The position numbers were made by a program, and so were the translations under genes. Shown here piece by piece: positions 49,208 to 64,000 of a stretch of 64,000 nt of DNA. Source of the stretch: an uncultured Pseudohongiella sp. GTDB lineage: Bacteria; Pseudomonadota; Gammaproteobacteria; Pseudomonadales; Pseudohongiellaceae. How positions within the stretch are numbered: the stretch's first letter is position 1; every line of letters starts with the position of its first letter. The stretch spans positions 1 through 64,000 of the forward strand of contig CACAEJ010000001.1 in the NCBI GenBank assembly GCA_902531515.1, in the 5' to 3' direction. The notes beneath the pieces are model-generated. The model was not told the origin of the DNA and made no database searches. It saw only the letters and a list, made by a program, of their open reading frames with translations.

Positions 49208-50584
49208 ATGAATATTTATCTATTAAATTTGCGTGTAATTATAATATGTTTGGCTTTCTTTCTTGGGGAGGTTTCTGCTCAAGACGAAAATACTGATGAG
49301 CCTTCGGTTGAGGATAACGCGCGAGCTCGAATGTATTATCTTGAAAAACCGATAGTTGTAGACTCTAACTCTTCGCCAACTCTTACTAATGTTCCCTTGC
49401 GTCGAGGCATTGAGACTTCGGAAATTGACTTACAATCTGGCGCAGACAGTGAAACTCTTCAGCGCTATGTGCTTGCGATAGAAATGATAGAGGATACCGG
49501 AGGCGTCTGGGATAGTCAGTTGGTTGAACAGTTATCGACACTAGGGAATCTGCAACAGCAGCGACTCAACCACCCGGCCGCAATCGAGGCGTACAGGAGA
49601 GCCATTCAAATTAATAGAATAGCTCAAGGATTGCATACCCCTGATCAAATACCATTCCTTGAGAATATGATTGATAGTCTTGTTGCCGCCGAGGATTGGG
49701 AGCAAGCAGATTTGTATAGTGATTATCTCTTTTTTGTCCAGCACAAAGCTTACGGGATCAATGATCCACGTTTAATACCGGCACTAGAGAGATTGGCTTC
49801 ATGGAACATTAGAGCATTCAATTTAGGTTATGGGGATCAGCTTGGTGCTCGATTGAGCACCGCTCAAATGCTCCTTAGTGCTGGCCTCCGTGCTGTTGTT
49901 GCGCACTATGGCCGGCGAGATGAGAGGTTTCTCCAGTATCTGAAGGATTTGGCTAGATCCGCTTATTATGTGAAGATGTATCCAGAGTATTTGGCAGGCT
50001 TAGATCAACCTGAATTTAGAGCTAGGCAGGAGAATCTCCGGCAGAAGCTGAACAGCAACACAATCTATCCTCGAAGTTTTAGCCTCGGAGAGGCCGCACT
50101 GAAAGATATTATTAATTACCATATTCAGGAAAATGGTAGTGTCTTTTTAATCGCAGAGGCGATAACTCATCTTGCGGATTGGTATCTTCTTTTTGATAGA
50201 AGATCAAATGCTCAAAACCGTTATCTTCAGGCTTGGAGCCTTTTAAGCACAGAGCCCAATGGAGATCAACTCAAGGAGAAACTATTTGGGCATGTTGTGC
50301 CCTTGCCAACGTTCATGGAAGGACCAAAAAACCTGGAGATGAGAGCATCTATACCTAAGGTTCGGTCGAATTTAAAATACTCAACCGCAGATGTGTCATT
50401 TTCCGTGTCGATTACTGGAGGGGTCAGAGATCTTGATGTGCTGACAGAAGAAAATGACGAAAATGCCAATCTGTTGTCACGACTGAGGAGAAGTATTCGC
50501 TTTTCAAAGTTCAGACCTGTCATCGAGAACGGACAGCCAGTGCATAGTGCCGGGCACGTTTTTCGATACCGATATTGGTATTAA
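49208..50584 (+). CDS. Secreted TPR protein with TonB-C-like end
   Basis: 458 residues from the ATG at 49208, which gives a clean signal peptide ending VSAQDE; a longer frame from 49169 would bury it. Helical repeats at about 95-300 look like tetratricopeptide repeats (for example NHPAAIEAYRRAIQINRIAQ). The last 60 residues (VSITGGVRDLDVL, SIRFSKFRPVIENGQPV, GHVFRYRYWY) resemble the TonB C-terminal fold used by many periplasmic proteins. First gene of the co-directional block that runs to the window end. No specific function is recognised. Confidence 0.75.
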   Translation: MNIYLLNLRVIIICLAFFLGEVSAQDENTDEPSVEDNARARMYYLEKPIVVDSNSSPTLTNVPLRRGIETSEIDLQSGADSETLQRYVLAIEMIEDTGGVWDSQLVEQLSTLGNLQQQRLNHPAAIEAYRRAIQINRIAQGLHTPDQIPFLENMIDSLVAAEDWEQADLYSDYLFFVQHKAYGINDPRLIPALERLASWNIRAFNLGYGDQLGARLSTAQMLLSAGLRAVVAHYGRRDERFLQYLKDLARSAYYVKMYPEYLAGLDQPEFRARQENLRQKLNSNTIYPRSFSLGEAALKDIINYHIQENGSVFLIAEAITHLADWYLLFDRRSNAQNRYLQAWSLLSTEPNGDQLKEKLFGHVVPLPTFMEGPKNLEMRASIPKVRSNLKYSTADVSFSVSITGGVRDLDVLTEENDENANLLSRLRRSIRFSKFRPVIENGQPVHSAGHVFRYRYWY

Positions 50585-50797
50585 AAAAAGCATTTAGAAT
50601 GTAGCATCTTTCAATGCGGGGTCAAGTTAGAAAAAGGCTCGCTCGGATATATGTCTTTTTCAAGATAATTCTGTGCACAAAAGTTGTTAAAATAGTTGAA
50701 AAACTAAAAACCGTAGCTAAAACCTTTGATTTTCGTCGAATTGGCTAGAAGATAACTTGTAGTTATTACGTTAACTGTGAAAGGAAACTCTAGTAGA
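50585..50797. other. Spacer before the lipoprotein-PEGA-ExbB-vWA gene block
   Basis: 213-bp AT-rich spacer, the largest gap between 49208 and the window end, hence the likeliest site of a promoter for the genes that follow. Weak candidates are TTGGCT with TATTAC 17 bases later (about 50741-50769). It also holds the GCGGGGTCAAG stretch mentioned with the transposase motifs. Confidence 0.4.
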
Positions 50798-51793
50798 ATG
50801 AACAGCATGAAATGTAAAATTAGACCTTTAGGTATAGCAATCTGCACTGCGTATTTGTTGTTGGCAGCGTGTCAGAGCTCGAGCCAAAGTTCGCAAAGTT
50901 CGCCTTCGATGCCTATGCCATCTTCCTCAAGCCAGAGTTCGTCTAGCTCTAGATCCATGCCATCTCCTTCAAGTCAGAGTTCGTCGATGCCATCAAACTC
51001 AGACCCGAGCTCGTCAAGCTCTCAGGGTCGGTCGGCATCACGAGGAGATCAAGGCCAGCCTTCGCCAACAGGGGCCCAAAAAAATCCAGCGACAGCGTCT
51101 CCTAGGCAACAAAGCCAGCCGGTTGGCGATGCTTTGCCTGCAGCAGGTGGGGGCGCCGCGATGCCATCAGGTGATAATAGAAGAGATGGACAGCCGGGAG
51201 ACGATCGAATTGTATCTACTGGCGGTAGGGATATTTCTACGGGAGATGTTAATGACCAAAGTGGGATAAATTCATCTAATATACCTAACAAAAGCAGTCA
51301 AAGTGGAGATTATAGCCTAGATACCCTGCCTAATGGGGTTCTCAGTGGCTCTAATAAGACTCAGGGCCGTGGCCCGATGACTTCGTCGGAGCGAGCACGA
51401 GTGCTTGATGAAAGGCTTCGGAAAGGTTATGAGACATTCGATGGCTTTATCTTAAGCGAAAGAGAGAAAGCTCAGAACGAGAGCAATGCGGCGGGAAGTG
51501 CACAGCCTGGAGCAGATGGAGGTGGTGGAAATGCACAATATCAACCTCAAACCATTCAGGAAGTAGCCGGAGACCCTTCTGGCGTTTCAGGTGCTCCACC
51601 ATCTCCTTCGGCAAGCCGGGAAGTAGCAGAGAGTTTTCCAGCCCCAGACGACATCCCAAGCGGGAGGGACGATGACGTGGTAGCGCGCCAGTTGCGGGAA
51701 GCTGCGATGCGTGAACCAGATCCAGAGCTCAGAGAGGCGCTATGGGATGAATATCGCAACTACACCGGGTTAAGCGGAGGTACAGATCAATGA
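50798..51793 (+). CDS. Serine-rich low-complexity lipoprotein
   Basis: About 331 residues from the ATG at 50798 (AAGGAAA about 12 nt upstream; a GTG at 50777 is also open). The signal peptide ends in lipobox LLAAC. Immediately after the Cys comes a Ser/Gln/Pro/Met-rich stretch of about 60 residues, then Gly/Pro-rich disordered sequence. Only the parts around SSERARVLDERLRKGYETF and VVARQLREAAMREPDPEL look folded and helical. Probably an outer-membrane lipoprotein with a flexible tether. Its stop overlaps the next start (ATGA). No family recognised. Confidence 0.75.
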   Translation: MNSMKCKIRPLGIAICTAYLLLAACQSSSQSSQSSPSMPMPSSSSQSSSSSRSMPSPSSQSSSMPSNSDPSSSSSQGRSASRGDQGQPSPTGAQKNPATASPRQQSQPVGDALPAAGGGAAMPSGDNRRDGQPGDDRIVSTGGRDISTGDVNDQSGINSSNIPNKSSQSGDYSLDTLPNGVLSGSNKTQGRGPMTSSERARVLDERLRKGYETFDGFILSEREKAQNESNAAGSAQPGADGGGGNAQYQPQTIQEVAGDPSGVSGAPPSPSASREVAESFPAPDDIPSGRDDDVVARQLREAAMREPDPELREALWDEYRNYTGLSGGTDQ

Positions 51794-52974
51794 AGATAAC
51801 GTACGGATATATTTTTGCATTTTCGTTTAGCGTCTCATTTTTAAATGGATGTGCGACACACACAGTTAAGACGACTTCTTACACACCGGTCATTCAAGAT
51901 AGTCAAAACGTGAGTGAGGACTTTCTGCTTGATGTTGGAATTGCAATCTTTGATCCAGGAATTGATGAACTGGATGATGACCAGGAGCAGGTAACAAACC
52001 ACCAGGTTCGTTTAGCTGAGTCGAGATATGCTCCTTATCTTCTGTCAGAAACGCTTCAGCGTTCAGCAAACTGGGGTATTGTGCGCCTGATGCCAAACTC
52101 AAATAGTCCCATGGATGTCTTCATCGATGGTGTAATTATAGAGTCAAATGGTGAAGAGATGGGCATGAGAATTGAAGTGTCTGATTCCAGTGGTCGTCAT
52201 TGGTATACCAAGGAGTATGAGCAGGCTATAAGTCAGTTTAGTTATGACCCTTCGCAGCGGCAACAGAATGATCCATTCCAAATTCTTTACAATAATATTG
52301 CAAACGATTTATTGGCATGGCGTAAAAAAAATCTTGATGAGTCAAACATTACTGAAATTCGAACAATATCAGAAATGCTCTTTGCAAAGAGATTCTCTTC
52401 GGAAGTTTTTGATAGCTACCTCTTACAAGATCGAAACGGTGTTTATCAAATCACTTCATTGCCTGCGAATGAAGATCCGCTGCTTCAGCGCATCCGAGAC
52501 ATCCGAGAGCGAGATTTCATGTTCATCGATACCGTACAAGATTACTACGCTACTTATGTTCGTCAAATGCGTTTGCCTTATGACTCTTGGCGGGAGCAGA
52601 GCTATCACGAAACTATTGAGCTCCGAGAACTAGAAGCTTCCGCAAAACGCAGATTCATTGCTGGCGCAGCAGCCGTTGTGGGAGGTCTCGCTGCCGCCAC
52701 GCAAGGCAGTAACTATGGCACTCAGGTAGGAGGAGCTTTTGGAGTTGGAGCTGGAGCTTATTTAATAAGAAGCGGATTCGACAAGCGAGCTGAGGCGCGA
52801 ATGCACATGGAGGCTCTTGAAGAGCTTGGCCAGTCATTGGAAAGCGAAGTCGCTCCTCAAGTCATTAGTTTAGAAGATAGGACAATAACTCTAACGGGGT
52901 CTGTTGAGGAGCAATACGAACAGTGGCGAGAAATCTTGGCAGATCTCTATGCGGTTGAAGTGGGTCAGCTTTGA
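51790..52974 (+). CDS. Lipoprotein with C-terminal glycine-zipper segment
   Basis: 394 residues. The signal peptide ends in lipobox LNGC. A mixed alpha/beta domain (about 40-180, including VGIAIFDPGIDEL and DVFIDGVIIESNGEEM) is followed by a helical region and, near residues 287-325, a Gly/Ala-rich membrane-like segment (AGAAAVVGGLAAATQG, VGGAFGVGAGAYLI) of glycine-zipper type. The C-terminus has EDRTITLTGSVEEQYEQW. Translation is coupled to the serine-rich lipoprotein by an ATGA overlap. I do not recognise the family; the role is likely outer-membrane or envelope-spanning. Confidence 0.75.
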   Translation: MKITYGYIFAFSFSVSFLNGCATHTVKTTSYTPVIQDSQNVSEDFLLDVGIAIFDPGIDELDDDQEQVTNHQVRLAESRYAPYLLSETLQRSANWGIVRLMPNSNSPMDVFIDGVIIESNGEEMGMRIEVSDSSGRHWYTKEYEQAISQFSYDPSQRQQNDPFQILYNNIANDLLAWRKKNLDESNITEIRTISEMLFAKRFSSEVFDSYLLQDRNGVYQITSLPANEDPLLQRIRDIRERDFMFIDTVQDYYATYVRQMRLPYDSWREQSYHETIELRELEASAKRRFIAGAAAVVGGLAAATQGSNYGTQVGGAFGVGAGAYLIRSGFDKRAEARMHMEALEELGQSLESEVAPQVISLEDRTITLTGSVEEQYEQWREILADLYAVEVGQL

Positions 52975-53016
52975 TTTAAAACGTTATTTTAGACCGTAAA
53001 ATCAGTAGAGTAAGAC

Positions 53017-54558
53017 ATGCCTAAAACCGATGAAGAGAAAAAGATTGATGAATCGTCTAAAATTGATTTAACGGGTCAAGTATCTCTAAATACCGTTCGG
53101 ATCTCCGACTCAAATAAACCTCCCATATGGATGTGGTTCAGCGTTGCTGGCCTAATTCTCATTGCACTTTTAGTCATTTTTGTATTGCCAGTACTGGTTA
53201 ATCGGTATCAACTACCACTTGAGCCAAGAATTGATATATCGCAAATACAGCAAACCAGTTCCACTGATTCCGCTACCCGCGAAATATCTCCTTTTGAGCA
53301 AGCTCAACGGGCGAGACAACGCAAGGAAGCACAAGATGTTCTGGCAGAGCTCCTTAGACTCCAATCAGAATTAGAGCAATTAGAAGTCGCATCCTGGGCT
53401 ATTCTCGAATTTGATTCCGCCCTTGAGACAGCAGGTTTGGGTGATAATTTTTATAGAGACCAAAATTTTGCAAAAGCCACTGAAACATATACTGAGGGGC
53501 TTGCTGAGTTACAAGGAATATTAAATTCCGTTGAAACAGTTTTCCAGAATACTTTGAGACAAGCAGAGGATGCTTTCGGCCGGAAAGATGCAGTGACTGC
53601 TACTGATGAGTTTACTCTTGCTGTTTTGTTAGACCCGAGCAGCGAAGATGCAGAGATCGGATTGAAGAGGGCTCTGGTACTCGATCAGGTCCTGACTCTA
53701 ATAGACTCAGCCGAACAACTGTTAGAAGACAATGCGCTTGAAGAAGCGAAGCACGTATATGAAGAAGTCGTCTCGTTAGACAATTATAACGAGTCTGCCA
53801 GACAGAACATTGACCAGATCAAGCAACTAATTTTAGAGGCAGATTTTTCGCGGGTAATGTCAAGAGGTTATGAGCTACTGCAAATTGGAGACGCTGAACA
53901 AGCTATTGTTCAGTTTGAAAGCGCGTCAAGTCTCGGAGTAAGTGAACAACAAGCTATGGCTGCGATAAGGCAGGCAGAAAATGAGATCGCTAACGCCAAG
54001 ATCACAGTTATTCGAGAGGATATTGTGTCTTCGGAGAATCAGGAAAACTGGCACAACGCTGTTACTCACTATGACAGTGTTTTAGAGATTGACTCAAATA
54101 TCGTATTTGCGGTCGAAGGTCGAGACTATGCAAGTAAGCGAGCACAATTGAATGACTTACTCGAAAGTGCAATTACTGGGCCTGACCGATTTTATGAAGA
54201 CGATGTCTTTCAACAAACTCTTGATATTTACTATACTGGCCGTGAAGTCGAAAAACAGCGGGGAGGTCCCGTGCTATCTGACCAGCTTGACCAATTGGAG
54301 CAACTGCTAGAGACCTCTCAAATTCCAATAAAAATACAATTCGCTTCAGATAATTTAACTGACGTCACGATACTGAGGGTGACAAATCTTGGACTTTTTG
54401 AAAACACTTCGGTGCAGCTAAAGCCGGGAAGATATGTAGCTCAAGGCAAGCGTATCGGTTATCGAGAAACGCGAACTGAATTTGTAGTAGGTTTTGGACA
54501 GACTCCAAACATAGTAAACGTTCTGTGCACCGAACGTATAGTTCCAACTAATAGGTGA
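53017..54558 (+). CDS. Inner-membrane-anchored TPR protein
   Basis: 513 residues: a 36-residue charged cytoplasmic N-terminus, one transmembrane helix at about 37-61, then a long periplasmic part. Residues 90-330 are helical with TPR-like units (FYRDQNFAKATETYTEGLAE, DAVTATDEFTLAVLLDPSSE, ALEEAKHVYEEVVSLDNYNE, NWHNAVTHYDSVLEIDSN). A small C-terminal beta domain (about 430-513, IKIQFASDNLTDVTILRV, RYVAQGKRIGYRET) has a PEGA-like look. It overlaps the PEGA/FGE gene by 4 nt, so the two are probably co-translated and act together. Confidence 0.78.
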   Translation: MPKTDEEKKIDESSKIDLTGQVSLNTVRISDSNKPPIWMWFSVAGLILIALLVIFVLPVLVNRYQLPLEPRIDISQIQQTSSTDSATREISPFEQAQRARQRKEAQDVLAELLRLQSELEQLEVASWAILEFDSALETAGLGDNFYRDQNFAKATETYTEGLAELQGILNSVETVFQNTLRQAEDAFGRKDAVTATDEFTLAVLLDPSSEDAEIGLKRALVLDQVLTLIDSAEQLLEDNALEEAKHVYEEVVSLDNYNESARQNIDQIKQLILEADFSRVMSRGYELLQIGDAEQAIVQFESASSLGVSEQQAMAAIRQAENEIANAKITVIREDIVSSENQENWHNAVTHYDSVLEIDSNIVFAVEGRDYASKRAQLNDLLESAITGPDRFYEDDVFQQTLDIYYTGREVEKQRGGPVLSDQLDQLEQLLETSQIPIKIQFASDNLTDVTILRVTNLGLFENTSVQLKPGRYVAQGKRIGYRETRTEFVVGFGQTPNIVNVLCTERIVPTNR

Positions 54559-56276
54559 CTGTGTTGGAAGATAATGACAAGAGCAAAAGTATTTCGGATA
54601 CTATAATTCCTATAGATTTCTCTCCCAATGATGGCAAAGGATCAGGTCAAACATTTAAGTTTAAATTAGTTCACGCTGTCCTCCTTTTTTTTGGTTCTAT
54701 ATTCGGATTTTCAGGCTGGTTTGTCCTTACAGCCAAGTCCGTTTTCGTTCAGGTAAATCCAATCACAGCGCAAGTGGAGATAAATGGCGGCATCAATATA
54801 AGACTTGGACAGAGATATTTAATCCGTAACGGTGAGTACTCGCTGAGGCTGACCAACGACGGTTACCACGTAATGAACACAGATCTGTATATTACGGAGG
54901 ATCAATCTCAAACGCATTCCTTTGAAATGGATCGATTGCCCGGAGTCGTTTCAGTTACTACCCCGGGACTAGCTGGCGCGAGAGTTCAAATAGATGGAGT
55001 TGACGTCGGAATTACACCATTAAGAGATATTCCGGTAGAGTTTGGCGCGCACTATCTACAGATATCTTACGACAGGTATTTGGATTTCGAGATGGATATA
55101 AATGTTGAGGGCAGAGGAGTTGAACAGGAATTCTCCGCGCAGCTTGAACCGGCGTGGGCAGTAGTTGGTCTAACAACGACTCCCGATGGCGCTGAAGTGT
55201 TGTTGGACGGGGTGGTTATTGGGGAAACGCCGTTAGATGCTGAAATCATAGAAGGCAGGCGAGATATAATGCTGAAGCTCGCTGGCTTCAAAGCCTGGAG
55301 CGATCAACTATCTATAGTTGCGGGTGAAGATTTCGTTGTGCCGAGTGTTGAGCTGGAACCGGCAGAAGGTTTAGTTTTTGTTCTCAGTAATCCTCCTGAA
55401 GCTTCATTAACTGTAGGAGGCGAATTTAAAGGTCTGACACCCCTAGAAGTCGCTTTGGTCCCCGGCCAAGACCACGAGCTAACCTTGTTTAAAAACGGGT
55501 ATAAGTCAAAAAAATCCATAGTGCGCACAGTTCCTAATGAGGAAAAGTCAATCTCTATTTCCCTCCAGGCAATAACCGCTGACGTCGAAGTTATAGCGTA
55601 TCCTGAAGATGCGGAATTATTCGTCGATGGAGACTATAGGGGATCGGCTAATCAAATTGTCCAACTGATGGCGGCTAGCCAGCAAATTGAAATTCGCAGA
55701 GAAGGGTACGTCCCATATGTCACAGATTTCACTTCACGACCCGGAATTGATCAGGTAATACGGGTCAGTTTGAAGTCACTAGAGCAAGAGCGCTTGGAGC
55801 AGATCAAGCCAATAATTACATCCGTTGCGGGAGAGAGCCTTAAGCTTTTCTACCCAAATGCCTTTACCATGGGCGCATCCCGCCGAGAAGCGGGTAGAAG
55901 ACCAAACGAAAATATTAGGGAGATCCTATTGGAACGCCCGTTCTACTTTGGATTTAAAGAGGTAACAAATGCAGAGTATCGGATGTTTGATAGTCAGCAT
56001 TCTTCTGGAACCGTTTCGGGAGTTACCTTAAATAATGAAAATCAGCCCGTAGTTCAAGTAAGTTGGTCCAAAGCGGCTCTGTTTTGTAATTGGTTGAGTC
56101 AACAAGAAGGATTGCCGCTCTTTTATCAATCGCAAGATGGAGAAATCACCGGTTTTAATGCTGAAGCTACTGGATATCGTCTCCCCTCTGAAGCTGAATG
56201 GGCATGGGTTGCCAGAACTAATGACAGTGGCAATAGTCTAAAGTATCCTTGGGGTGATCAATTGCCCCCCCCCTGA
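54555..56276 (+). CDS. Membrane-anchored PEGA-repeat protein with FGE/SUMF1-like domain, frame interrupted
   Basis: 573 codons as read. Start GTG at 54555 overlaps the previous stop. One transmembrane helix (about 39-61) precedes about five PEGA beta-domains (roughly 62-128, 131-198, 202-268, 272-338, 342-407), with repeats such as GARVQIDGVDVGITPL and GAEVLLDGVVIGETPL. From about 426 comes a formylglycine-generating-enzyme-like domain (AFTMGASRREAGRRPNENIR, EVTNAEYRMF, ATGYRLPSEAEWAWVAR, YPWGDQLPPP). The frame stops at 56274 right after nine C's. Removing one C joins it to the next frame and completes a 691-residue protein. FGE-like domains need not be oxidases; here the domain may be a binding module. 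Confidence 0.8.
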   Translation: MTVLEDNDKSKSISDTIIPIDFSPNDGKGSGQTFKFKLVHAVLLFFGSIFGFSGWFVLTAKSVFVQVNPITAQVEINGGINIRLGQRYLIRNGEYSLRLTNDGYHVMNTDLYITEDQSQTHSFEMDRLPGVVSVTTPGLAGARVQIDGVDVGITPLRDIPVEFGAHYLQISYDRYLDFEMDINVEGRGVEQEFSAQLEPAWAVVGLTTTPDGAEVLLDGVVIGETPLDAEIIEGRRDIMLKLAGFKAWSDQLSIVAGEDFVVPSVELEPAEGLVFVLSNPPEASLTVGGEFKGLTPLEVALVPGQDHELTLFKNGYKSKKSIVRTVPNEEKSISISLQAITADVEVIAYPEDAELFVDGDYRGSANQIVQLMAASQQIEIRREGYVPYVTDFTSRPGIDQVIRVSLKSLEQERLEQIKPIITSVAGESLKLFYPNAFTMGASRREAGRRPNENIREILLERPFYFGFKEVTNAEYRMFDSQHSSGTVSGVTLNNENQPVVQVSWSKAALFCNWLSQQEGLPLFYQSQDGEITGFNAEATGYRLPSEAEWAWVARTNDSGNSLKYPWGDQLPPP

Positions 56277-56631
56277 GAGTTCCGGAAACTTCGCAGACAT
56301 TACGGCTCAAAGTTACCTAGGCGAGATAATGTTTGATTATGACGATAAATATTTTGCAACATCACCGGTAGGTTTTTTTGCACCAAACCATTACGATATC
56401 TACGACCTGGCGGGCAACGTTGCGGAATGGGTACATGATTACTATGGCGCAGTAGGCTCTGTTGGAGTAGAGGTTGATCCTTTGGGACCAGAGCTTGGCC
56501 AATTCCATACAATCCGAGGCTCTAGTTGGTCTCACGGCGCGGTCACTGAAATGCGTCTGTCCTTTCGAGATTTTGGCGAAGAACCCCGAGACGATGTTGG
56601 TTTTCGTATTGCTCGATATCTAGAGGAGTAG
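56254..56631 (+). pseudogene. 3' part of the PEGA/FGE gene, in shifted frame
   Basis: From about 56274 this frame continues the FGE-like domain: ESSGNFADITAQSYLG, NHYDIYDLAGNVAEWVHDYY, FHTIRGSSWSHGA and the closing DDVGFRIARYLEE. These are exactly the pieces missing from the preceding frame, so they belong to one gene. It has no ribosome site or plausible start of its own. Expression as a full protein requires 8 (or 11) C's in the tract, slippage at the tract, or correction of a sequencing error. Confidence 0.8.
56265..56273 (+). repeat. C9 homopolymer tract causing the frameshift
   Basis: Nine consecutive C's inside the FGE-like domain, preceded by ATTG and followed directly by TGA in the upstream frame. 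A C8 tract restores a continuous reading frame. Poly-C/G tracts of this length are known slippage sites for phase variation and for transcriptional slippage, and also known sites of sequencing error. Confidence 0.9.
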
Positions 56632-56662
56632 CGGTGAGATGAGCCTCTGGAGGGCGCAAGCT

Positions 56663-56902
56663 ATGAAGTTCTTTTTTATACTGGTTGTTTTGATTTTAAA
56701 TCTGGTTGCTCATGCTCAAGAAACCGAGTCGATAGAGGAGGAACAATATCCTCTTAGTGAATCCCAAGATGTTGAGGATGAAGAAGTTCAACAAGATGAG
56801 AACGGAGAAAACATTGCACCTGACTCTAATTCTGGAACACGTTTTATTCCCACCGAACAGATTTCACAAGACTTAGGGGTCTCCTTTCCGGTTGACATAT
56901 AA
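56663..56902 (+). CDS. Small secreted acidic protein
   Basis: 79 residues from the ATG at 56663, chosen because GGAGG lies 9 nt upstream and it gives a compact signal peptide (MKFFFILVVLILNLVAHAQE). An earlier ATG at 56639 is open but less well placed. The mature part is about 60 residues, very acidic (many Glu/Asp) and probably disordered. It ends with the ordered-looking motif FIPTEQISQDLGVSFPVDI. Similar tails occur, as I recall, on other small gammaproteobacterial secreted proteins. It lies between the FGE-like gene and the proton-channel gene. Confidence 0.7.
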   Translation: MKFFFILVVLILNLVAHAQETESIEEEQYPLSESQDVEDEEVQQDENGENIAPDSNSGTRFIPTEQISQDLGVSFPVDI

Positions 56903-56925
56903 TAAGCCACAAAAAGGGATAATTT

Positions 56926-57735
56926 ATGAAGCAAGGCTCTTTATACGAAGCACTATTTCAGATTGGTGCACTTATCTTTGTGATAATAATAGTACATGCA
57001 ACATATGTAACGGTTATACGTCCGAATGCTGATTTGATACAGGAGCAACAGCAACTTTTGCAGCAGCAAGATGAAAATTTTGTACCAGAAAGATCAGTCT
57101 TTATTATTTTAAGAGATTTCGAGCAGGAGACCTGCATTATTTTAATGTTATGGGCCATGGCTATAATCAGCATGAAAACGCAACACACCTTGAGAGAGCG
57201 AACTCTGCTAGATCGCACATTGGTAAACCTACAAGACGGAGTGAGTATTTTGCCGGAGGACTGCAGAAATTACTCTAGGCCTGTGCAAGCCTTATCTAAT
57301 CGAGAGCGTGAATTCTTATTGCCACGGGCGCTATTGGCAGGACTTCATCGATTCCAGAGCACAGAAAATATTCAAGCAGTTTCTTCTATTGTAAAAGATA
57401 CATGTGAAACTGAAGCTGACAGAATGGAAACAGAACTAACTATTGTTAGATATATTGCGTGGGCGATTCCGTCGATTGGATTTTTGGGGACTGTTCGAGG
57501 TATTGGAACGGCTCTTGGTCAGGCCTACCAGGCGGTCAGTGGAGATATTGTCGGAGTAACTCAAAGTTTAGGAGTCGCATTCAACTCAACTTTTGTTGCT
57601 CTTGTGGTAAGTATTGTCCTGATGTTCATACTGCATCAGCTGCAGTTACTTCAAGATCGTTTAGTTCTCGATTGTCAGAACTATTGCGATGAGAGGCTTA
57701 TAAGACATATGCAAGTGCCTGAAAAAATTGAGTAG
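56926..57735 (+). CDS. MotA/TolQ/ExbB-family proton-channel protein
   Basis: 269 residues, about four membrane segments: 10-30, 68-84, 174-198 and 215-238. The last two carry the family signature IPSIGFLGTVRGIGTALGQA and LGVAFNSTFVALVVSIVLMF. Thr189 and Thr222 sit where ExbB/TolQ have their channel threonines. The cytoplasmic region (85-173) is charged. An extra N-terminal helix distinguishes it from plain ExbB. In known systems five such subunits surround a pair of ExbD/TolR/MotB helices; the matching helices here are probably those of the two vWA proteins downstream. Confidence 0.88.
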   Translation: MKQGSLYEALFQIGALIFVIIIVHATYVTVIRPNADLIQEQQQLLQQQDENFVPERSVFIILRDFEQETCIILMLWAMAIISMKTQHTLRERTLLDRTLVNLQDGVSILPEDCRNYSRPVQALSNREREFLLPRALLAGLHRFQSTENIQAVSSIVKDTCETEADRMETELTIVRYIAWAIPSIGFLGTVRGIGTALGQAYQAVSGDIVGVTQSLGVAFNSTFVALVVSIVLMFILHQLQLLQDRLVLDCQNYCDERLIRHMQVPEKIE

Positions 57736-57761
57736 AACAAGTTTATTTTAGAGAAACTAAT

Positions 57762-59114
57762 ATGTCCGTTAAAGTCATCGAAATTAATGACTCCAACATA
57801 AGAGTGGGCGACGAGACAGGGATCGTATTCCAGAGTCCAGGGTTTGCATTAGTTACCGAAGATAAACTAGAAGTCGGGGAGTTTGCGGAGCGACAATCGC
57901 GCATTCAGCCCACCAATAGCTTTAGTAAATACTGGTATGAGCTAAATCTTGAACCTATATCTCATAGCTCAAAAGTAAGACATCACGCTGATCTCGCGTA
58001 CGCTCAACTTATGCATTTAGCAGAAGCGGCTGATATTGATCAAGATGTTATCTTCTCCGTACCTGGCAACTTTTCAAAAGATCAACTTGCAATCTTACTG
58101 GGATTAGCTCGGCAGACAAATTTTTCACCAATTGGATTTGTAAATTCAGCTCTTGCTGATTCAATTCAAGCTACTCACAAAAAACAGAGTCTGCATGTAG
58201 ATATTCAATTACATCAAGTGGTAATCACTACAATAGTTATAAATGAGGCATATTTTAAGGTTGAAAATGTTTTGCAGCTACCGGGCGTTGGCATGCAGAA
58301 TTTCATGAATTTAATTATGCAAGTAGCAACTGATTTGTTTATTGATCAATGCCGCTTTAACCCCCAGCATGATGCTATTTCAGAGCAAGACTTATACAAC
58401 GCGCTCCTTTCTTGGTTGTCAAATCATGAAGAGGGCACAACAGTTCAACTAGAACTACAGAGTAGTGATACAGTGCATCTAGCTAAGTTGCCTTGGGAAA
58501 ATTTAACAGCAGTACTTGATAGATATTATCGAAAAATTAATGAACAATTAAGTGCGCTTACGGTCGGGCTCGAAGTCCAACTGATATTGAGTGAGTGTCT
58601 CAGCCGCCTCCCTGGCTTTTTACGGACTATCCCTAGTGATCTACAATATGAAGTAGCATCTGTTTACCAGGGAGCAAGAGCATGCATAGATCATCAAAAA
58701 CTTATTGCATCAAAAGACGGAGAAATAACTCTCATTGAGAAATTAAAAAAATCTGAGTTGGGGATTGACGAGTTAGTCCCAAAAAACGAAGTGCAACAGA
58801 GTGAGTTAGCGAGTCATTTACTTTTTGGTAATGAGGCGATCAAACTTCGCCGGGTGGTTATCAGGAATATGCCAGGAAAATCAGAGGCACGCGAATCCTC
58901 GCAGGAGATTAATCTTGCTATGGAAGGCTTACCAGAACACTTAGGGACTATAGATAACACAGGCTCCGGCATCTATTTTAATTCCACGAATGATCATGCG
59001 ATCTTGAATCATCGATCAATTAGCAAAGGAATTCATTCATTGCAACTTGGAGATCACATAAGGTTTGAGGAGTCTGGCGATGAGATCCGTTTAATTAAGG
59101 TGCGAAATGGCTAG
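57762..59114 (+). CDS. Degenerate Hsp70/actin-fold protein with FHA-like C-terminus
   Basis: 450 residues, no signal or membrane helix, so cytoplasmic. The N-terminal 330 residues follow the Hsp70/actin layout: VIFSVPGNFSKDQLAILLGLA corresponds to the strand-helix after phosphate loop 1, and HVDIQLHQVVITTIVINEAY to the phosphate 2 strand. The nucleotide-binding glycines of DnaK (DxGTT, GGGT) are replaced, so ATP hydrolysis is doubtful. The last 65 residues (GIYFNSTNDHAILNHRSI, LQLGDHIRFEESGDEIRLI) resemble the second half of an FHA beta-sandwich. It lies between the channel gene and the vWA genes and overlaps the next start by 8 nt. Confidence 0.65.
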   Translation: MSVKVIEINDSNIRVGDETGIVFQSPGFALVTEDKLEVGEFAERQSRIQPTNSFSKYWYELNLEPISHSSKVRHHADLAYAQLMHLAEAADIDQDVIFSVPGNFSKDQLAILLGLARQTNFSPIGFVNSALADSIQATHKKQSLHVDIQLHQVVITTIVINEAYFKVENVLQLPGVGMQNFMNLIMQVATDLFIDQCRFNPQHDAISEQDLYNALLSWLSNHEEGTTVQLELQSSDTVHLAKLPWENLTAVLDRYYRKINEQLSALTVGLEVQLILSECLSRLPGFLRTIPSDLQYEVASVYQGARACIDHQKLIASKDGEITLIEKLKKSELGIDELVPKNEVQQSELASHLLFGNEAIKLRRVVIRNMPGKSEARESSQEINLAMEGLPEHLGTIDNTGSGIYFNSTNDHAILNHRSISKGIHSLQLGDHIRFEESGDEIRLIKVRNG

Positions 59115-60210
59115 TAATAGTAAATCAAACAGACGGAAAGTTAATCCCTTGAGTCTAGCGTTTCTGGACGTAATGTTTTGTGGCTTTGGAGCAGTTATTC
59201 TTATCTTTCTGATTATAGATCACGCTAGCAGCGTATCTCCAGAAGCTAATAACCCAGAACTTACCGCAGAAATTAATTTGTTGGAAGAAGAGGTAGAAAC
59301 CGGTCAACTAGGTTTAGTTGAGATTCGAAACACTTTATCTGCAGTTTCATTAGAAGTAGTCACTGCCGAGGGCCTAGCCAATCAAATAATGGAGGAGATT
59401 GATTCATTCCTCCAAGAGCTGGCAGCATTAGAAAACAACAGCATGGCCACTGAAGAGGATATCGCTCAGTTGCGTTCCGATGTGGAGGCTCTTGAAGAAG
59501 AGCTATTACGTCTTCAAGCAAGCGCCTTTGAGCAGGAAGGGAACAGCGTTCGTCAGTTTCTTGGTGATGGTAACCGTCAGTATTTATCAGGGCTCTTCTT
59601 AGGTGGGCAGCGAATATTGATTTTGTTGGATAGTTCCGCATCCATGCTTGATAGTACGATAGTAAATATTATTCGCACTCGCAACATGGATGACGACCGT
59701 AAGAGAAGTGCGCCTAAATGGCAGCGGGTAGTCAATACAGTTGACTGGGTAAGCACACAGCTACCAATTACAAGCCAGTATCAGATTTGGAGTTTTAACA
59801 CGAGTTATACACCAATACTTCCAGAAACAGGTAATGCTTGGCTAGAGGCTGCAGACCGTGATCTTCTGAACGAAGCTATTGAAAATGTAAAAAGCCTTGT
59901 GCCCGAAAATGGAACTAATCTGACCCAAATTTTCAGAGCTGTCGCGAGTATGTCTCCTCCACCAGATAATATATTTCTTATTACTGATGGATTGCCTACA
60001 CTAGGTGATAGAAACTCCTCTAATTCCTTAGTGACACCGTCTGAGCGGCTGGAATTTTTTGAAGAAGCAGTCGAGGAGCTATCCCCAGGAACACCAATTA
60101 ATGTAATACTGATGCCTCTAGAAGGCGATCCAAGCGCTGCGGCAGCCTACTGGCAGTTGGCACAATATACAAAAGGTTCGTTTTTAACGCCCTCCAGGGA
60201 TTGGCCTTAA
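59107..60210 (+). CDS. ExbD-like helix + coiled coil + vWA domain protein (first of pair)
   Basis: 367 residues. A short basic cytoplasmic N-terminus leads to one membrane helix at about 16-38 reading FLDVMFCGFGAVILIF; FLDVM with Asp21 is nearly the FIDVM of ExbD, whose Asp takes the proton. A long helical, Glu/Leu-rich coiled coil covers about 50-140. The periplasmic von Willebrand A domain (about 168-360) has the MIDAS residues: D175, S177 and S179 in DSSASM, a Thr in ENGTNLTQ, and D294 in ITDGLPT. No TolR/OmpA peptidoglycan domain is present. Its start overlaps the upstream gene, implying coupled translation. Confidence 0.82.
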   Translation: MASNSKSNRRKVNPLSLAFLDVMFCGFGAVILIFLIIDHASSVSPEANNPELTAEINLLEEEVETGQLGLVEIRNTLSAVSLEVVTAEGLANQIMEEIDSFLQELAALENNSMATEEDIAQLRSDVEALEEELLRLQASAFEQEGNSVRQFLGDGNRQYLSGLFLGGQRILILLDSSASMLDSTIVNIIRTRNMDDDRKRSAPKWQRVVNTVDWVSTQLPITSQYQIWSFNTSYTPILPETGNAWLEAADRDLLNEAIENVKSLVPENGTNLTQIFRAVASMSPPPDNIFLITDGLPTLGDRNSSNSLVTPSERLEFFEEAVEELSPGTPINVILMPLEGDPSAAAAYWQLAQYTKGSFLTPSRDWP

Positions 60211-60258
60211 GAATATGACTTACTTTATGTTTGTAGGCTCACAGACTTATTTTGTTAT

Positions 60259-61269
60259 ATGAATACACGTAAAAACAGAGAAACAGACTCTTTTACGGTA
60301 TCTTTTTTAGATGTCGCATCGTGTGGTTTTGGCGCCATGATCATTTTATTAATGATCACTAAATCGTCTGCTCCTACCACGTTAGAAGCGACTGAAAGTG
60401 CCATCCCGGAAGGCTCGGTCGCAGAATTACAGGACCAACTTTTTCAAATCCGCGGCGAAACTGTGATTGTCAACCGTGAGCTAAACGCTAAGCAGGAACA
60501 GCTTTCGGCGAATAAGGAACGTGTGGCTAGATTGCGAAGAGACTTAGAGAATATTCAGGGCCGATTCAATACGACAAAGGATCTTTCCGATGAAACAACA
60601 GATGAAATGGGACGCCTCGCCTTAGCCCAGCAGAGCTTAACAGAAGAAATGCAGCGTTTGCTGGCAAATACTAGCGCGCCTGATAACAATGTGATCGGAG
60701 GCGTGCCGGTTGACAGTGAATACATAATCTTTGTGATAGACACTTCCGGAAGTATGTTTCAGAATCCTAGCTGGGATAAAATGTTGGAGGTGATTGAGGA
60801 CACTCTCGATGTGTATCCCGAGGTAAAAGGAATTCAGGTTATGAACGATATGGGTGATTATATGTTTGATTCATATCGCGGAGACTGGATTCCAGATACG
60901 CCAGGCAGACGGAGTCAAATCATATCTACGCTGAGGACATGGAATCCATACAGTAATAGCAGCCCTGTCGAGGGCGTTACTCGTGCGATAAACACTTTCT
61001 ATGCTCCCGATAAGAAAATAAGTATTTATGTCCTCGGTGATGATTTTCAGCCAGGTGGTTCTATAAGAGAAGTGCTTCAAACTATTGACAGAATTAATCT
61101 CGAAGATGCTAATGGTGATAGACTAGTTCGAATTCATGGGATCGGTTTTCCTACTATCTTTGCTGGTCCGCGACGATTTCAGCAGAGTGTCTATAGATAC
61201 TCTACCTTGATGCGGGAAATGACGATCCGAAACGGTGGTACGTTTGTCGGTTTGAACGATTATCAATAA
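60259..61269 (+). CDS. ExbD-like helix + coiled coil + vWA domain protein (second of pair)
   Basis: 336 residues with the same architecture as the gene before it: membrane helix at about 13-35 reading FLDVASCGFGAMIILLMI (Asp18), coiled coil at about 52-135, vWA domain at about 153-336. The MIDAS motif is DTSGSM (D161, S163, S165), with SNSSPVEG and VLGDD at the other metal positions. The shared helix pattern FLDV--CGFGA shows the two are paralogues, but their vWA domains differ considerably, so they may form a heterodimer inside the proton channel. 48-bp gap to the previous gene. Confidence 0.82.
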   Translation: MNTRKNRETDSFTVSFLDVASCGFGAMIILLMITKSSAPTTLEATESAIPEGSVAELQDQLFQIRGETVIVNRELNAKQEQLSANKERVARLRRDLENIQGRFNTTKDLSDETTDEMGRLALAQQSLTEEMQRLLANTSAPDNNVIGGVPVDSEYIIFVIDTSGSMFQNPSWDKMLEVIEDTLDVYPEVKGIQVMNDMGDYMFDSYRGDWIPDTPGRRSQIISTLRTWNPYSNSSPVEGVTRAINTFYAPDKKISIYVLGDDFQPGGSIREVLQTIDRINLEDANGDRLVRIHGIGFPTIFAGPRRFQQSVYRYSTLMREMTIRNGGTFVGLNDYQ

Positions 61270-61309
61270 TTTTGCGTATACTAAAGGTACAGGTGTCTTG
61301 AGTACTAAA

Positions 61310-61936
61310 ATGAAAATTCGATTCAAAAACCAGCCTCTCTATCTCAGGTTATCAGTTTTTTCAATAATGATATCTCTAATGTCTTCATGCGGGGTTAGCA
61401 ATTTAGTGATAGAGGGGAGCTTTCCGACACCAAATATTAATAAAATTCCGCTGACCATGGCTGTTTATTATGATGAAGCCTTAAAAGAATTTTCTTATAT
61501 GGAGTATAGTGAGACCGGGCGGGAAGAAATAAATATCGAGAGCGGCGAATCGCATATTAATCTTTTCAATGCTGTGCTTCCGGCGATGTTTGACGAAGTT
61601 ATTGAGATCGAAGGTTTCGATGATCCAAAAGTTCTGGAGGTAGATGCTATTTTTGCGCCAGTGATTGAGGAATTTCAGCTAGCGCTTCCGGAAAAGACTA
61701 AGCTTGAGGTCTATGAAGTTTGGATCAAATACAATATGCGAATAGTTGATAGTATGGGCGACTCCTTAGCGGATTGGGTAGTGACTTCTTACGGGAAAAC
61801 TCCAACTGAAACTTTTCGGTCCGTCGAAAACGGTATTAATGAAGCGGCTGTAGTTGCATTGCGGGATCTTGCTTCTAGCTTTTCGCTGAATTTTACTCGA
61901 ATACCAGAGGTGCAGGATTGGTTAAACAGCCTTTAA
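61310..61936 (+). CDS. Lipoprotein of unknown function
   Basis: 208 residues from the ATG at 61310 (a TTG at 61298 is also open). The signal peptide ends LMSSC-G, an acceptable lipobox. The mature protein is acidic with alternating beta strands (NKIPLTMAVYYDEALKEFSY, LEVYEVWIKYNMRIVD) and GKTPTETFRSVENGINEAA near the end. This resembles the general shape of small assembly lipoproteins that bind a partner in the periplasm, but I cannot name a family. It follows the second vWA gene by 40 bp. Confidence 0.72.
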   Translation: MKIRFKNQPLYLRLSVFSIMISLMSSCGVSNLVIEGSFPTPNINKIPLTMAVYYDEALKEFSYMEYSETGREEINIESGESHINLFNAVLPAMFDEVIEIEGFDDPKVLEVDAIFAPVIEEFQLALPEKTKLEVYEVWIKYNMRIVDSMGDSLADWVVTSYGKTPTETFRSVENGINEAAVVALRDLASSFSLNFTRIPEVQDWLNSL

Positions 61937-61963
61937 GGGAGTTCGAATCTAACTGGTGATCCT

Positions 61964-62629
61964 ATGAAAGGAACTTCGAAAATTAAGGTATCTCTTACTT
62001 GCATATGCACTCTTATGCTTGCTTCGTGCACGAGCACCACCGTAGATGAATTTAGACAAGGTGAGACTGGCATTGAGAGTGACGAATCTGTAGTGATTCT
62101 TGGGCGCCGTCAGGCAAGTGACTTCGAGACAAAATCAGATTTTGTGGAATGCGTAGGGGATCGAATGAGTCAGGGAGAAAATGCGATATCGATTATTCCC
62201 GAGAGAGAATTTATTGATGCAATGTTTCCTTGGTTTGAACCACGAACCGCACCATTGCGTGCAAGCGACCTCGAACAGTTGCTTGCCGAGGATGTGGTTG
62301 CCCAAAAGATGAATGAATTCGGTATTAGGTACATGGTTTGGGTCGAAGGATTTACTGAGACAACTGGCAGAACAGGTTCAATATCTTGTACAGTAGGCCC
62401 TGGAGGAGGGGGCTGCTTCGGCTTCGGTACCTGGGAAGATGATGCTAATTTCGATGCGAGAGTTTGGGATGTGATTTCCTTAAGAAATGTAGGAACTATT
62501 AATACAGATGCAACCGGTCAATCTTATCTTCCAGCACTCGTTGTTCCTATACCGTTGATTGCTAGGGTAGAAACGAATGCTTGTAATCGTCTCGCAGCCC
62601 AACTAAAAGACTTTGTGAATGGCGAGTAA
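61964..62629 (+). CDS. Lipoprotein of unknown function
   Basis: 221 residues. The signal peptide ends in lipobox LASC. The mature domain has ESVVILGRRQASDFETKSDF at the start, a central VAQKMNEFGIRYMVWVEGFT and a Cys/Gly-rich turn (CTVGPGGGGCFGFGTWEDD) with strands around it; four Cys in the mature part besides the lipid-bearing one could form disulfides. It may be a paralogue in style of the preceding lipoprotein, but sequence similarity is not evident by eye. It lies 3 nt before the M48 protease gene. Confidence 0.72.
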   Translation: MKGTSKIKVSLTCICTLMLASCTSTTVDEFRQGETGIESDESVVILGRRQASDFETKSDFVECVGDRMSQGENAISIIPEREFIDAMFPWFEPRTAPLRASDLEQLLAEDVVAQKMNEFGIRYMVWVEGFTETTGRTGSISCTVGPGGGGCFGFGTWEDDANFDARVWDVISLRNVGTINTDATGQSYLPALVVPIPLIARVETNACNRLAAQLKDFVNGE

Positions 62630-62632
62630 GTC

Positions 62633-64000
62633 ATGCTTAACCTTAGAATTAGAACTGGCTCTACTATGAGAAATAACAGCTGTAATGAGAAAGTAGAATT
62701 CCCTTGTACTGTTAGAATAATTCTTCCTATGATGTGCTTGTTGACTTTTCTTCCTATCATAAATTCTTGCGCGGTTAATCCAGCGACGGGCAGTACAAAT
62801 TTAGTACTCATGTCAGAGAACAGGGAAAAAGAAATAGGTCTTGAGGAACATGAAAAAGTACTTGATAGCATGACGCTTTTTGAAGATGAAAAATTGCTCA
62901 ATTATGTTCGGGATGTGGGCAATCGAGTAGCTCGAGTCAGTCATCGACCAGACTTGGAATATCAGTTCCATATTATAGATAGTCCAGAGATAAATGCCTT
63001 TGCTCTGCCAGGAGGGTATGTATACATAAATCGCGGATTACTAACTTATTTAAACTCAGAGGCAGAGCTCGCTGCTGTTTTAGCTCATGAGATTGGCCAT
63101 ATAACTGCAAGGCATGCTGTTCAGCAACAGGCGAGGGGTGCTTTGGCTAGAGGGGCTGCTGTGGCGGGCGGGATTGTTGCTGGAATTGCAACAGGGTCCG
63201 GTTACGCAGCATCTCAAATCAGTGAAGTTGCTTCTATTTGGGCTCAGACCGGTTTAAGTGGTTTCGGTAGAGATAACGAACTTGAGGCAGACAGCCTAGG
63301 AGCCGAATATCTCTTGGCTGCTGGTTATGATCCGGCAGCCGTAATAGATGTGATTACTGTATTGAAGAATCAAGAGGATTTTAATCGCTTAGTAGCTGGC
63401 GGGGGAGGTACCTATCATGGGCTTTTTGCCACCCACCCTCGGAATGACAAACGTCTTCAGGAGGCTGTTGCACAAGTAGGTAGACTAGAGACTGATGAAG
63501 TCAAGATGATTGATGAAGAAGTATTCAGAATTAACCTTGACGGATTAATTATCGGACAAAGCAACGCTTCTCAAATGACAGACACACGAAATCGGTACTA
63601 TCAGGATTTGCTTGGATACACTGTAGTTTTCCCAGATGATTGGGAAATTGAAACGACTACGACCACGGCAACCGCAAAAGACTCAACGTTAGGATCTCTT
63701 CGGATAGAAGTGCAGCGCCTTCAAAATAGCGTTGACCCTCGATCTTTTATTCAAAATGTTTTGGGCATACGGAATCTCACAAAGTCAGAGGGTTTGTCTC
63801 AATTTCGCCTTCAAGGCCACACTGGAGTCACGGAAAGTGACAGTGCCGGTATCAAAGAGCGGGTTGCTGTTATTTATTTAGGCCCTAGGGCTTTTATCTT
63901 TAGAGGTGACATAGTTCCTAATGCCAACGAAGCAGAGGTAGACCAGATGATGCTATCTTCAATTCGATCTTTTCGCGCAATTCAAAGAGGAGAGGTGGCT
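62633..64000 (+). CDS. M48-family metalloprotease lipoprotein, 3' truncated by window edge
   Basis: 456 codons are open to the last base, without a stop. The signal segment ends in lipobox INSC, then AVNPATGSTNLVLMSE, the usual start of BepA/LoiP-type envelope proteases. The zinc site is AHEIGHITARHAVQQQ, and the third ligand is in DNELEADSLGAEYLLAAGY; ATHPRNDKRL follows. After about residue 330 there is a further beta-rich domain (YTVVFPDDWEIET, QFRLQGHTGVTESD). Family members degrade or mature outer-membrane proteins. The gene may belong to the preceding block, 3 nt away. Confidence 0.9.
   Translation, partial: MLNLRIRTGSTMRNNSCNEKVEFPCTVRIILPMMCLLTFLPIINSCAVNPATGSTNLVLMSENREKEIGLEEHEKVLDSMTLFEDEKLLNYVRDVGNRVARVSHRPDLEYQFHIIDSPEINAFALPGGYVYINRGLLTYLNSEAELAAVLAHEIGHITARHAVQQQARGALARGAAVAGGIVAGIATGSGYAASQISEVASIWAQTGLSGFGRDNELEADSLGAEYLLAAGYDPAAVIDVITVLKNQEDFNRLVAGGGGTYHGLFATHPRNDKRLQEAVAQVGRLETDEVKMIDEEVFRINLDGLIIGQSNASQMTDTRNRYYQDLLGYTVVFPDDWEIETTTTTATAKDSTLGSLRIEVQRLQNSVDPRSFIQNVLGIRNLTKSEGLSQFRLQGHTGVTESDSAGIKERVAVIYLGPRAFIFRGDIVPNANEAEVDQMMLSSIRSFRAIQRGEVA

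Follow-up and report, generated by a model that had tools for sequence, protein, structure and literature searches.

Only a few forms of envelope motor powered by protons are known. A further family was added by prediction in 2025, without an assigned function (PMC12204202). In the available passages of that paper, the core of this TPH-vWA family consists of TolQ-like genes with heterologous TPH-vWA pairs, without TolR and with an Asp in the transpore helix. AF3 models of the family place the helices inside the pentamer pore, and the section on it says nothing on phenotype or on any function beyond force transduction. Here, we describe an operon in 64,000 nucleotides of DNA from a marine bacterium, an uncultured Pseudohongiella sp. 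(contig CACAEJ010000001.1, positions 1 to 64,000; referred to as the window), that shares with this family the Thr ring, the transpore Asp, the vWA pairs, the lack of TolR/ExbD and the occurrence in Proteobacteria. We suggest, with a probability of about 0.6, that the operon encodes a motor that spans the envelope, runs on protons and is of the 5:2 kind exemplified by MotAB, ExbBD and TolQR, with the parts assigned below.

With TolQR-TolA-Pal and ExbBD-TonB, the operon has in common a 5:2-type channel subunit, pore Thr residues and a transmembrane (TM) Asp. However, a vWA domain here replaces the periplasmic domain of ExbD/TolR, the axle proteins are two and unlike each other, and no full-length TolA/TonB-like transducer was recognised among the products. 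The Agl-Glt/Nfs systems of Myxococcus, as far as described in the available passages of PMC3169522, likewise have a TolQ-like motor whose two axle paralogues differ from each other, together with TPR proteins, an FHA protein and a small secreted protein (GltF, 89 amino acids). By contrast, AglQ and AglS have ExbD/TolR domains, there is no vWA axle, and the TM protein GltG bears both FHA and TonB_C, unlike the products described here. The Zorya system (ZorAB) also has a MotA-family channel, whereas the axle partners here are vWA proteins.

The original prediction had found no match to Tol-Pal, Ton, Mot, Gld or Zorya, and the equivalog models agree. The channel protein G scores 30.3 bits against a TolQ cut-off of 221, 22.2 bits against an ExbB cut-off of 135.35 and 12.7 bits against a MotA cut-off of 340, and the longer piece of protein E scores 52.1 bits against a GldK cut-off of 350. 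Membership of Tol-Pal, Ton, the flagellar stator and the type IX secretion/Gld system was, therefore, rejected. So was membership of Zorya: G has a weak ZorA match (1e-4), and ZorB, ZorC, ZorD and ZorE gave no match among the ten proteins scanned. A replacement of Tol-Pal was also rejected, as TolB (TolB_N) is present in 61/61 carriers, which are a part of those found and were chosen mostly for completeness.

The cluster comprises 13 genes, A to M, which all lie on the + strand from position 49208 to past 64000 in the list of open reading frames. The original prediction of about 14 genes on one strand, with gaps mostly below 50 bp and several overlaps, was right in strand, overlaps and reading frame positions; the count is 13 because the PEGA-FGE gene E is cut in two in this assembly. 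B/C (51790/51793), D/E (54555/54558) and H/I (59107/59114) overlap. Elsewhere, neighbouring genes are 3-48 bp apart, with a wider gap of 192 bp at A/B. The features are as follows:

49208..50584, + strand: A, secreted TPR protein (weak TPR matches)
50777..51793, + strand: B, lipoprotein (lipobox LAAC) with a long Ser/Gly/Gln-rich linker and, as read from family tails, conserved C-terminal ~45 residues
51790..52974, + strand: C, lipoprotein with a FlgT/PelC/CsgG/TolB-N-like N-domain (moderate fold match), then a long helical hairpin
53017..54558, + strand: D, single-TM protein (TM 43-61) with a cytoplasmic N-tail and periplasmic TPRs (weak TPR matches)
54555..56631, + strand: E (pieces 54555-56276 and 56254-56631), single-TM protein with five PEGA stretches and a domain like sulfatase-type formylglycine-generating enzyme (FGE)
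56265..56273, + strand: nine-C run, frame break of E
56639..56902, + strand: F, secreted micro-protein, 87 amino acids as listed, conserved C-terminal tail
56888..56899, + strand: C-terminal P-V-D-I codons of F (profile-found copies)
56926..57735, + strand: G, MotA/TolQ/ExbB-family channel subunit
57490..57492, + strand: Thr189 of G, read as pore threonine
57589..57591, + strand: Thr222 of G, read as pore threonine
57762..59114, + strand: H, Hsp70 nucleotide-binding-domain-fold protein, degenerate nucleotide loops, C-terminal FHA-like domain
59107..60210, + strand: I, vWA protein 1, N-terminal Asp-bearing TM helix, coiled-coil-like stretch and periplasmic vWA domain (Pfam match; alignment)
59167..59169, + strand: Asp21 of I in the TM helix
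59629..59643, + strand: MIDAS-type DxSxS of I
60259..61269, + strand: J, vWA protein 2, layout as in I (DTSGSM signature; alignment)
60310..60312, + strand: Asp18 of J in the TM helix
60739..60753, + strand: MIDAS-type DxSxS of J
61298..61936, + strand: K, accessory lipoprotein (lipobox)
61964..62629, + strand: L, accessory lipoprotein (lipobox LASC)
62633..64000, + strand: M, accessory M48-type metalloprotease by reading (HEIGH), running past the window end (open reading frame; synteny)

Simple scans find a hydrophobic segment or lipobox in A, B, D-G and I-M, in line with the signal peptide, lipobox or membrane helix noted earlier for nearly all products. In C, the sequence NGC was seen by reading, and 102/114 members of its family have lipobox-like sites. 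H has neither a hydrophobic segment nor a lipobox, and is predicted to be cytoplasmic. Scans for promoters (21 found versus 26.8 in shuffles) and terminators (15 versus 11.7) were uninformative.

The core of the proposed motor consists of G, I and J. G has a MotA_ExbB domain (Pfam, 5.2e-16), and Thr189 and Thr222, which we take to correspond to the pore threonines of TolQ/ExbB, are each invariant in 131/131 copies. I and J both contain at the N-terminus an FLDVxxCGFGA helix with the TM Asp, which is present in 137/137 copies of I and 136/136 of J; in these residue counts, duplicates are included and short copies (two I, one J and one G) are omitted. The MIDAS-type DxSxS motif is nearly as constant in I (D in 136/137, both S in 137/137) and is complete in J (all three in 136/136). 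I matches VWA_2 in Pfam at 5e-6, slightly above the cut-off. The vWA assignment of J is based on alignment and the DTSGSM signature. A PDB sequence search with G gave no match at E<=0.001. Of the features that define the TPH-vWA family, a TolQ-like gene next to vWA genes is seen by way of G, (H), I and J except in loci L191, L192, L194 and L201, and the ExbD/TolR domain (PF02472) gave no Pfam match among window proteins A-E and G-L. Because the genome containing the window has five further MotA_ExbB genes, G represents an additional motor.

In a phylogenetic tree of 265 sequences, I and J form two clades with none misplaced; the tree omits four I and six J without the search motif (several with an altered motif) and one J by length. 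Both proteins are encoded in 137 of the 139 loci analysed, and the other two loci end at contig ends. Thus, the split into two clades together with the joint presence suggests an obligate heteromeric axle and, because I and J each supply a pore helix and a vWA domain as two different proteins, they probably pair in it as an obligate heterodimer. Altogether, the motor reading of G, I and J is well supported, and the synteny, the invariant TM Asp and the pore threonines support the view of the original prediction that the genes at 53017-61269 specify one inner-membrane machine with moving vWA parts.

The synteny was analysed by running gene profiles over 138 loci, giving with the window a gene-order set of 139 loci, i.e. 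134 distinct loci after subtraction of five duplicates. This set is not a random sample because the loci were drawn by similarity to vWA protein 1 or H. Order was scored on profile-assigned genes alone, ignoring unassigned reading frames, and many loci are cut by contig ends. For alignments A1-A4, 14/19 loci were used. The order B-J is kept in 95/134 and the order A-M in 73/134 distinct loci, with median neighbour gaps of -8 to 41 bp (114 for A/B). Dispersal of the genes in related genomes had been named as an outcome that would speak against a common machine; on the same strand and within 2 kb, we found G and H together in 119/122 loci, H and I in 124/124, and I and J in 136/137. The order recurs at the genus, family, order and class level. 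Beyond this class, one family from a second class of the phylum has B-C-D-E-G-I-J in order at eight loci and G-I-J at a ninth, which is on a short contig; H was not found in these loci, and F was found there by reading the E-G gap. H was assigned in 124/139 loci of the gene-order set. The conserved core is B, C, D, E, F, G, I and J, present in two classes. M comes after L in most loci. The flanking genes vary beyond the genus, while inside the genus the genes past M are alike, too. In near relatives (L022-L035), co-directional genes for proteins of ~350, 350 and 375 amino acids lie downstream of M.

It is conceivable that these are envelope genes that lie together without a functional relation, as some loci at the class level lack A, K, L, M or H and the gene order is altered in a few clusters. 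However, the core order is kept across two classes and we consider this explanation very improbable. A mobile element was also rejected, as J, the protein searched, has no match in plasmid or phage records.

Relatives of vWA protein 1 are present in 74/293 genomes of the order (two weak), 37/370 of the class (five weak) and 19/397 of the phylum (six weak, one fragment), in each case including the genome of the window. Pseudohongiella, Microbulbifer, Parahaliea, Pseudohalioglobus and HTCC2080 are among the named carriers, some of which are cultured, e.g. Microbulbifer and Pseudohongiella. Genomes G121, G171 and G272 carry an additional vWA1-type copy of much greater divergence (e.g. L210, L211), which suggests a second version of the system.

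The micro-protein F is weakly conserved apart from its C-terminal end. In 120 copies found with a profile that itself contains this tail, Pro is at position -3 in 120/120, Asp at -1 in 119/120 and the final Ile is in 120/120, the family ending being FPxDI and that of the window copy P-V-D-I. The tail was also recovered when the motif was not required. Reading the E-G gap in eight divergent loci missed by the profile gave small frames with the F ending in six; of the other two, L196 was later matched by the motif and L192 has no G. In the loci of the other class, the same reading gave an F-type ending in 7/8, in frames of roughly 50-80 residues. In L244 and L249, F was located by motif search. 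Confinement of F to profile-found loci was rejected based on the gap reading and the motif search. An F ending lies at most 500 bases upstream of G in 132/142 loci; the ten misses include four without upstream sequence and six with a profile-found F, one of which ends FPANI. For comparison, an ending of the form P.D[IFVLM] occurs in only 151 of the 46,333 open frames of these loci, a number that includes the F genes. Over 138 loci with the F tail, the residues at 0, -2, -4, -6, -8 and -12 are mostly hydrophobic, as in a beta-strand; because 119 of these loci were found by profile and 19 only by a search requiring P.D[IFVLM], the figures for the 138 loci arise partly by construction. By a rough pattern, 117/120 copies have a signal-peptidase-like site past the hydrophobic core. 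An absence of F as the explanation for MIDAS loss was rejected as DxSxS is kept; I of L192 and of L206 missed the simple pattern.

The tail of F is like the D-box of TonB, QPISVTMVTPAD in the available part of PMC10907165, in its position after a hydrophobic segment, its strand-like alternation and its PxD[IL] ending, a resemblance that does not imply homology. We speculate that free-standing F could be a TonB or TolA reduced to its motor box that clamps a rotary motor with a 5:(1+1) hetero-axle. Its C-terminal strand, with alternating hydrophobics and PxDI-COOH, would bind a groove or the MIDAS of the I:J vWA pair and, in this way, switch the motor on or couple it to an outer-membrane ring, while a kinase-FHA pair on D and H would gate it from the cytoplasm in some lineages. 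We hold this specific version to be rather unlikely.

The product at 57762, H, is not featureless. In its model, an Hsp70-type nucleotide-binding-domain fold is followed by a C-terminal beta domain. At the positions of the phosphate loops, which in the Hsp70 ATPase we take to be glycine-rich, H has mostly E-[LI]-N-D and [DE]-[LI]-Q-L-H-Q. Matched by sequence position rather than superposition, the glycine-rich loops are thus lacking and the site is degenerate. In L195 and L196, H is short (337 and 323 amino acids) and possibly without the FHA-like domain because these lengths are about that of the Hsp70-like domain alone.

In five relatives (L163, L174, L184, L187 and L193), D has an N-terminal Ser/Thr kinase domain. 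In a comparison framed after three of these loci had been seen, an SRxH-bearing FHA domain on H was present in 5/5 kinase loci versus 0/95 kinase-less loci; here, kinase-less D proteins were called by length and catalytic motif, with Pfam run on six long D, the window's D and one other short D. The FHA domain of H is above the Pfam cut-off in all five kinase loci. The D protein of L158 (L158:3295-5511), near L163 and L174 in the tree, has a kinase-like N-terminal stretch without the catalytic residues and is a possible intermediate. These data, together with the PEGA-rich E, could also fit a sensory machine. In it, the complex of G, I and J would relay envelope strain or the proton-motive force to a cytoplasmic signalling module of the D kinase and the FHA domain of H, the PEGA, TPR and vWA domains would serve as sensors, and movement would be a by-product. 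However, the kinase is absent from most loci while the G, I and J residues are still invariant, and kinase signalling can, therefore, not be the conserved core task. We consider a sensory machine unlikely.

Among the remaining parts, E matches PEGA (1.2e-44) and, with its two pieces searched apart, FGE (8.9e-16 and 3.7e-16). In relatives, E is a single gene (median 694 amino acids), and L098 has one reading frame of 691 amino acids. The frame break of the window copy at the nine-C run is either an assembly error or a real break. FGE has two active-site cysteines, but none of 20 E copies inspected contains more than one Cys in its final 270 residues, the window copy being split. Nine loci (L163, L174, L182-L187 and L193) have an extra N-terminal FHA-like domain on E, with 17 weak PDB matches (E 0.0013-0.8) to what we take from their names to be mostly FHA-bearing proteins; SRxH is in none of the nine. 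The TonB_C domain is found in 7/15 members of the A family scanned (E<=0.05, best 1.7e-6), and in these relatives A is in this respect like TonB. A10 gave two weak kinesin matches in the PDB. In Pfam, there was no match for B at E<=1 or for the window copies of K and L; 14 members of the K family gave one match (E 0.041).

Residues ~38-184 of C moderately resemble the fold of the FlgT, PelC, CsgG and TolB-N lipoproteins at 7-16% identity to these chains; beyond this domain, C has a long helical hairpin (230-305 and 309-353), and a PDB sequence search with C gave no match at E<=1. This similarity would also suit a machine of the Agl-Glt/Nfs or curli/Pel exporter type that secretes a polysaccharide, lipoprotein or adhesin or moves it at the surface, C then being its outer-membrane ring. 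So would the parts akin to Glt/Agl in the available passages of PMC3169522, i.e. a TolQ-like motor, axle paralogues, FHA, TonB_C, TPRs and the GltF-like small protein. By contrast, no substrate, glycosyltransferase or beta-barrel was recognised among the window proteins scanned (the unassigned neighbours in relatives being unannotated), and no Glt, Agl or Gld model is above its cut-off. We consider such a secretion or surface-transport machine unlikely.

In the motor that we propose, we infer the assembly, its stoichiometry, its motion and the direction of force as follows. G would form a pentamer in the membrane and I and J the axle, each with one Asp-bearing helix in the pore and a helical stretch and MIDAS-type vWA domain in the periplasm. 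D and E would be periplasmic arms anchored in the inner membrane, and H would act at the cytoplasmic face. B and C, with K and L where present, would be lipoproteins, C possibly forming a PelC/CsgG-like outer-membrane ring and B a tether, while the short strand-like C-terminal peptide of F would bind at the periplasmic face of the machine. The axle would be turned or tilted by the flow of protons, and its vWA domains would thereby move against their partners. The D kinase and the phosphothreonine-type FHA domain of H may act as a cytoplasmic switch in some lineages; in the lineage of the window, the kinase is absent and the FHA domain degenerate, consistent with a joint loss of this switch. 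Outer-membrane maintenance or transport of a surface component is the likeliest class of cellular task.

Several observations weigh against this model. The VWA_2 match of J (0.035) is below the Pfam cut-off, and the evidence for an I:J heterodimer consists of pairing and phylogeny. G is relocated behind J in L191 and L194 and is on the other strand in L201, and the 19 kb fetched for L192 encode B, D, E, H, I and J, whereas C, F and G were not found there. For C, the match to known folds is moderate (Foldseek best E 0.0028), TonB_C was not matched in the window's own A, and the window's own H has no FHA match in Pfam. Finally, the kinase loci are few and from about three lineages, and some of them had, as mentioned, been seen before the SRxH comparison was framed.

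The original prediction called the system unnamed. The core of motor and vWA pair is already in print, while no description of the remaining parts was found: the main text of PMC12204202 does not mention PEGA, formylglycine, kinase or Hsp70, and FHA appears there only within FhaC. Judged from titles, abstracts and passages, the literature searched has no description of a vWA axle beyond that paper, nor did we find one for F, H, C or the D kinase as parts of this system. Within this literature, the conserved operon, the micro-protein F, the Hsp70/FHA protein H and the joint occurrence of kinase and FHA domain seem to be new.

F is easily missed by annotation, yet its last residues are among the most conserved of the system. 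To the predicted motor family, our analysis adds a conserved parts list, testable residues, cultured carriers and an asymmetrical two-protein axle. In this way, the predicted motor becomes amenable to direct experiment.

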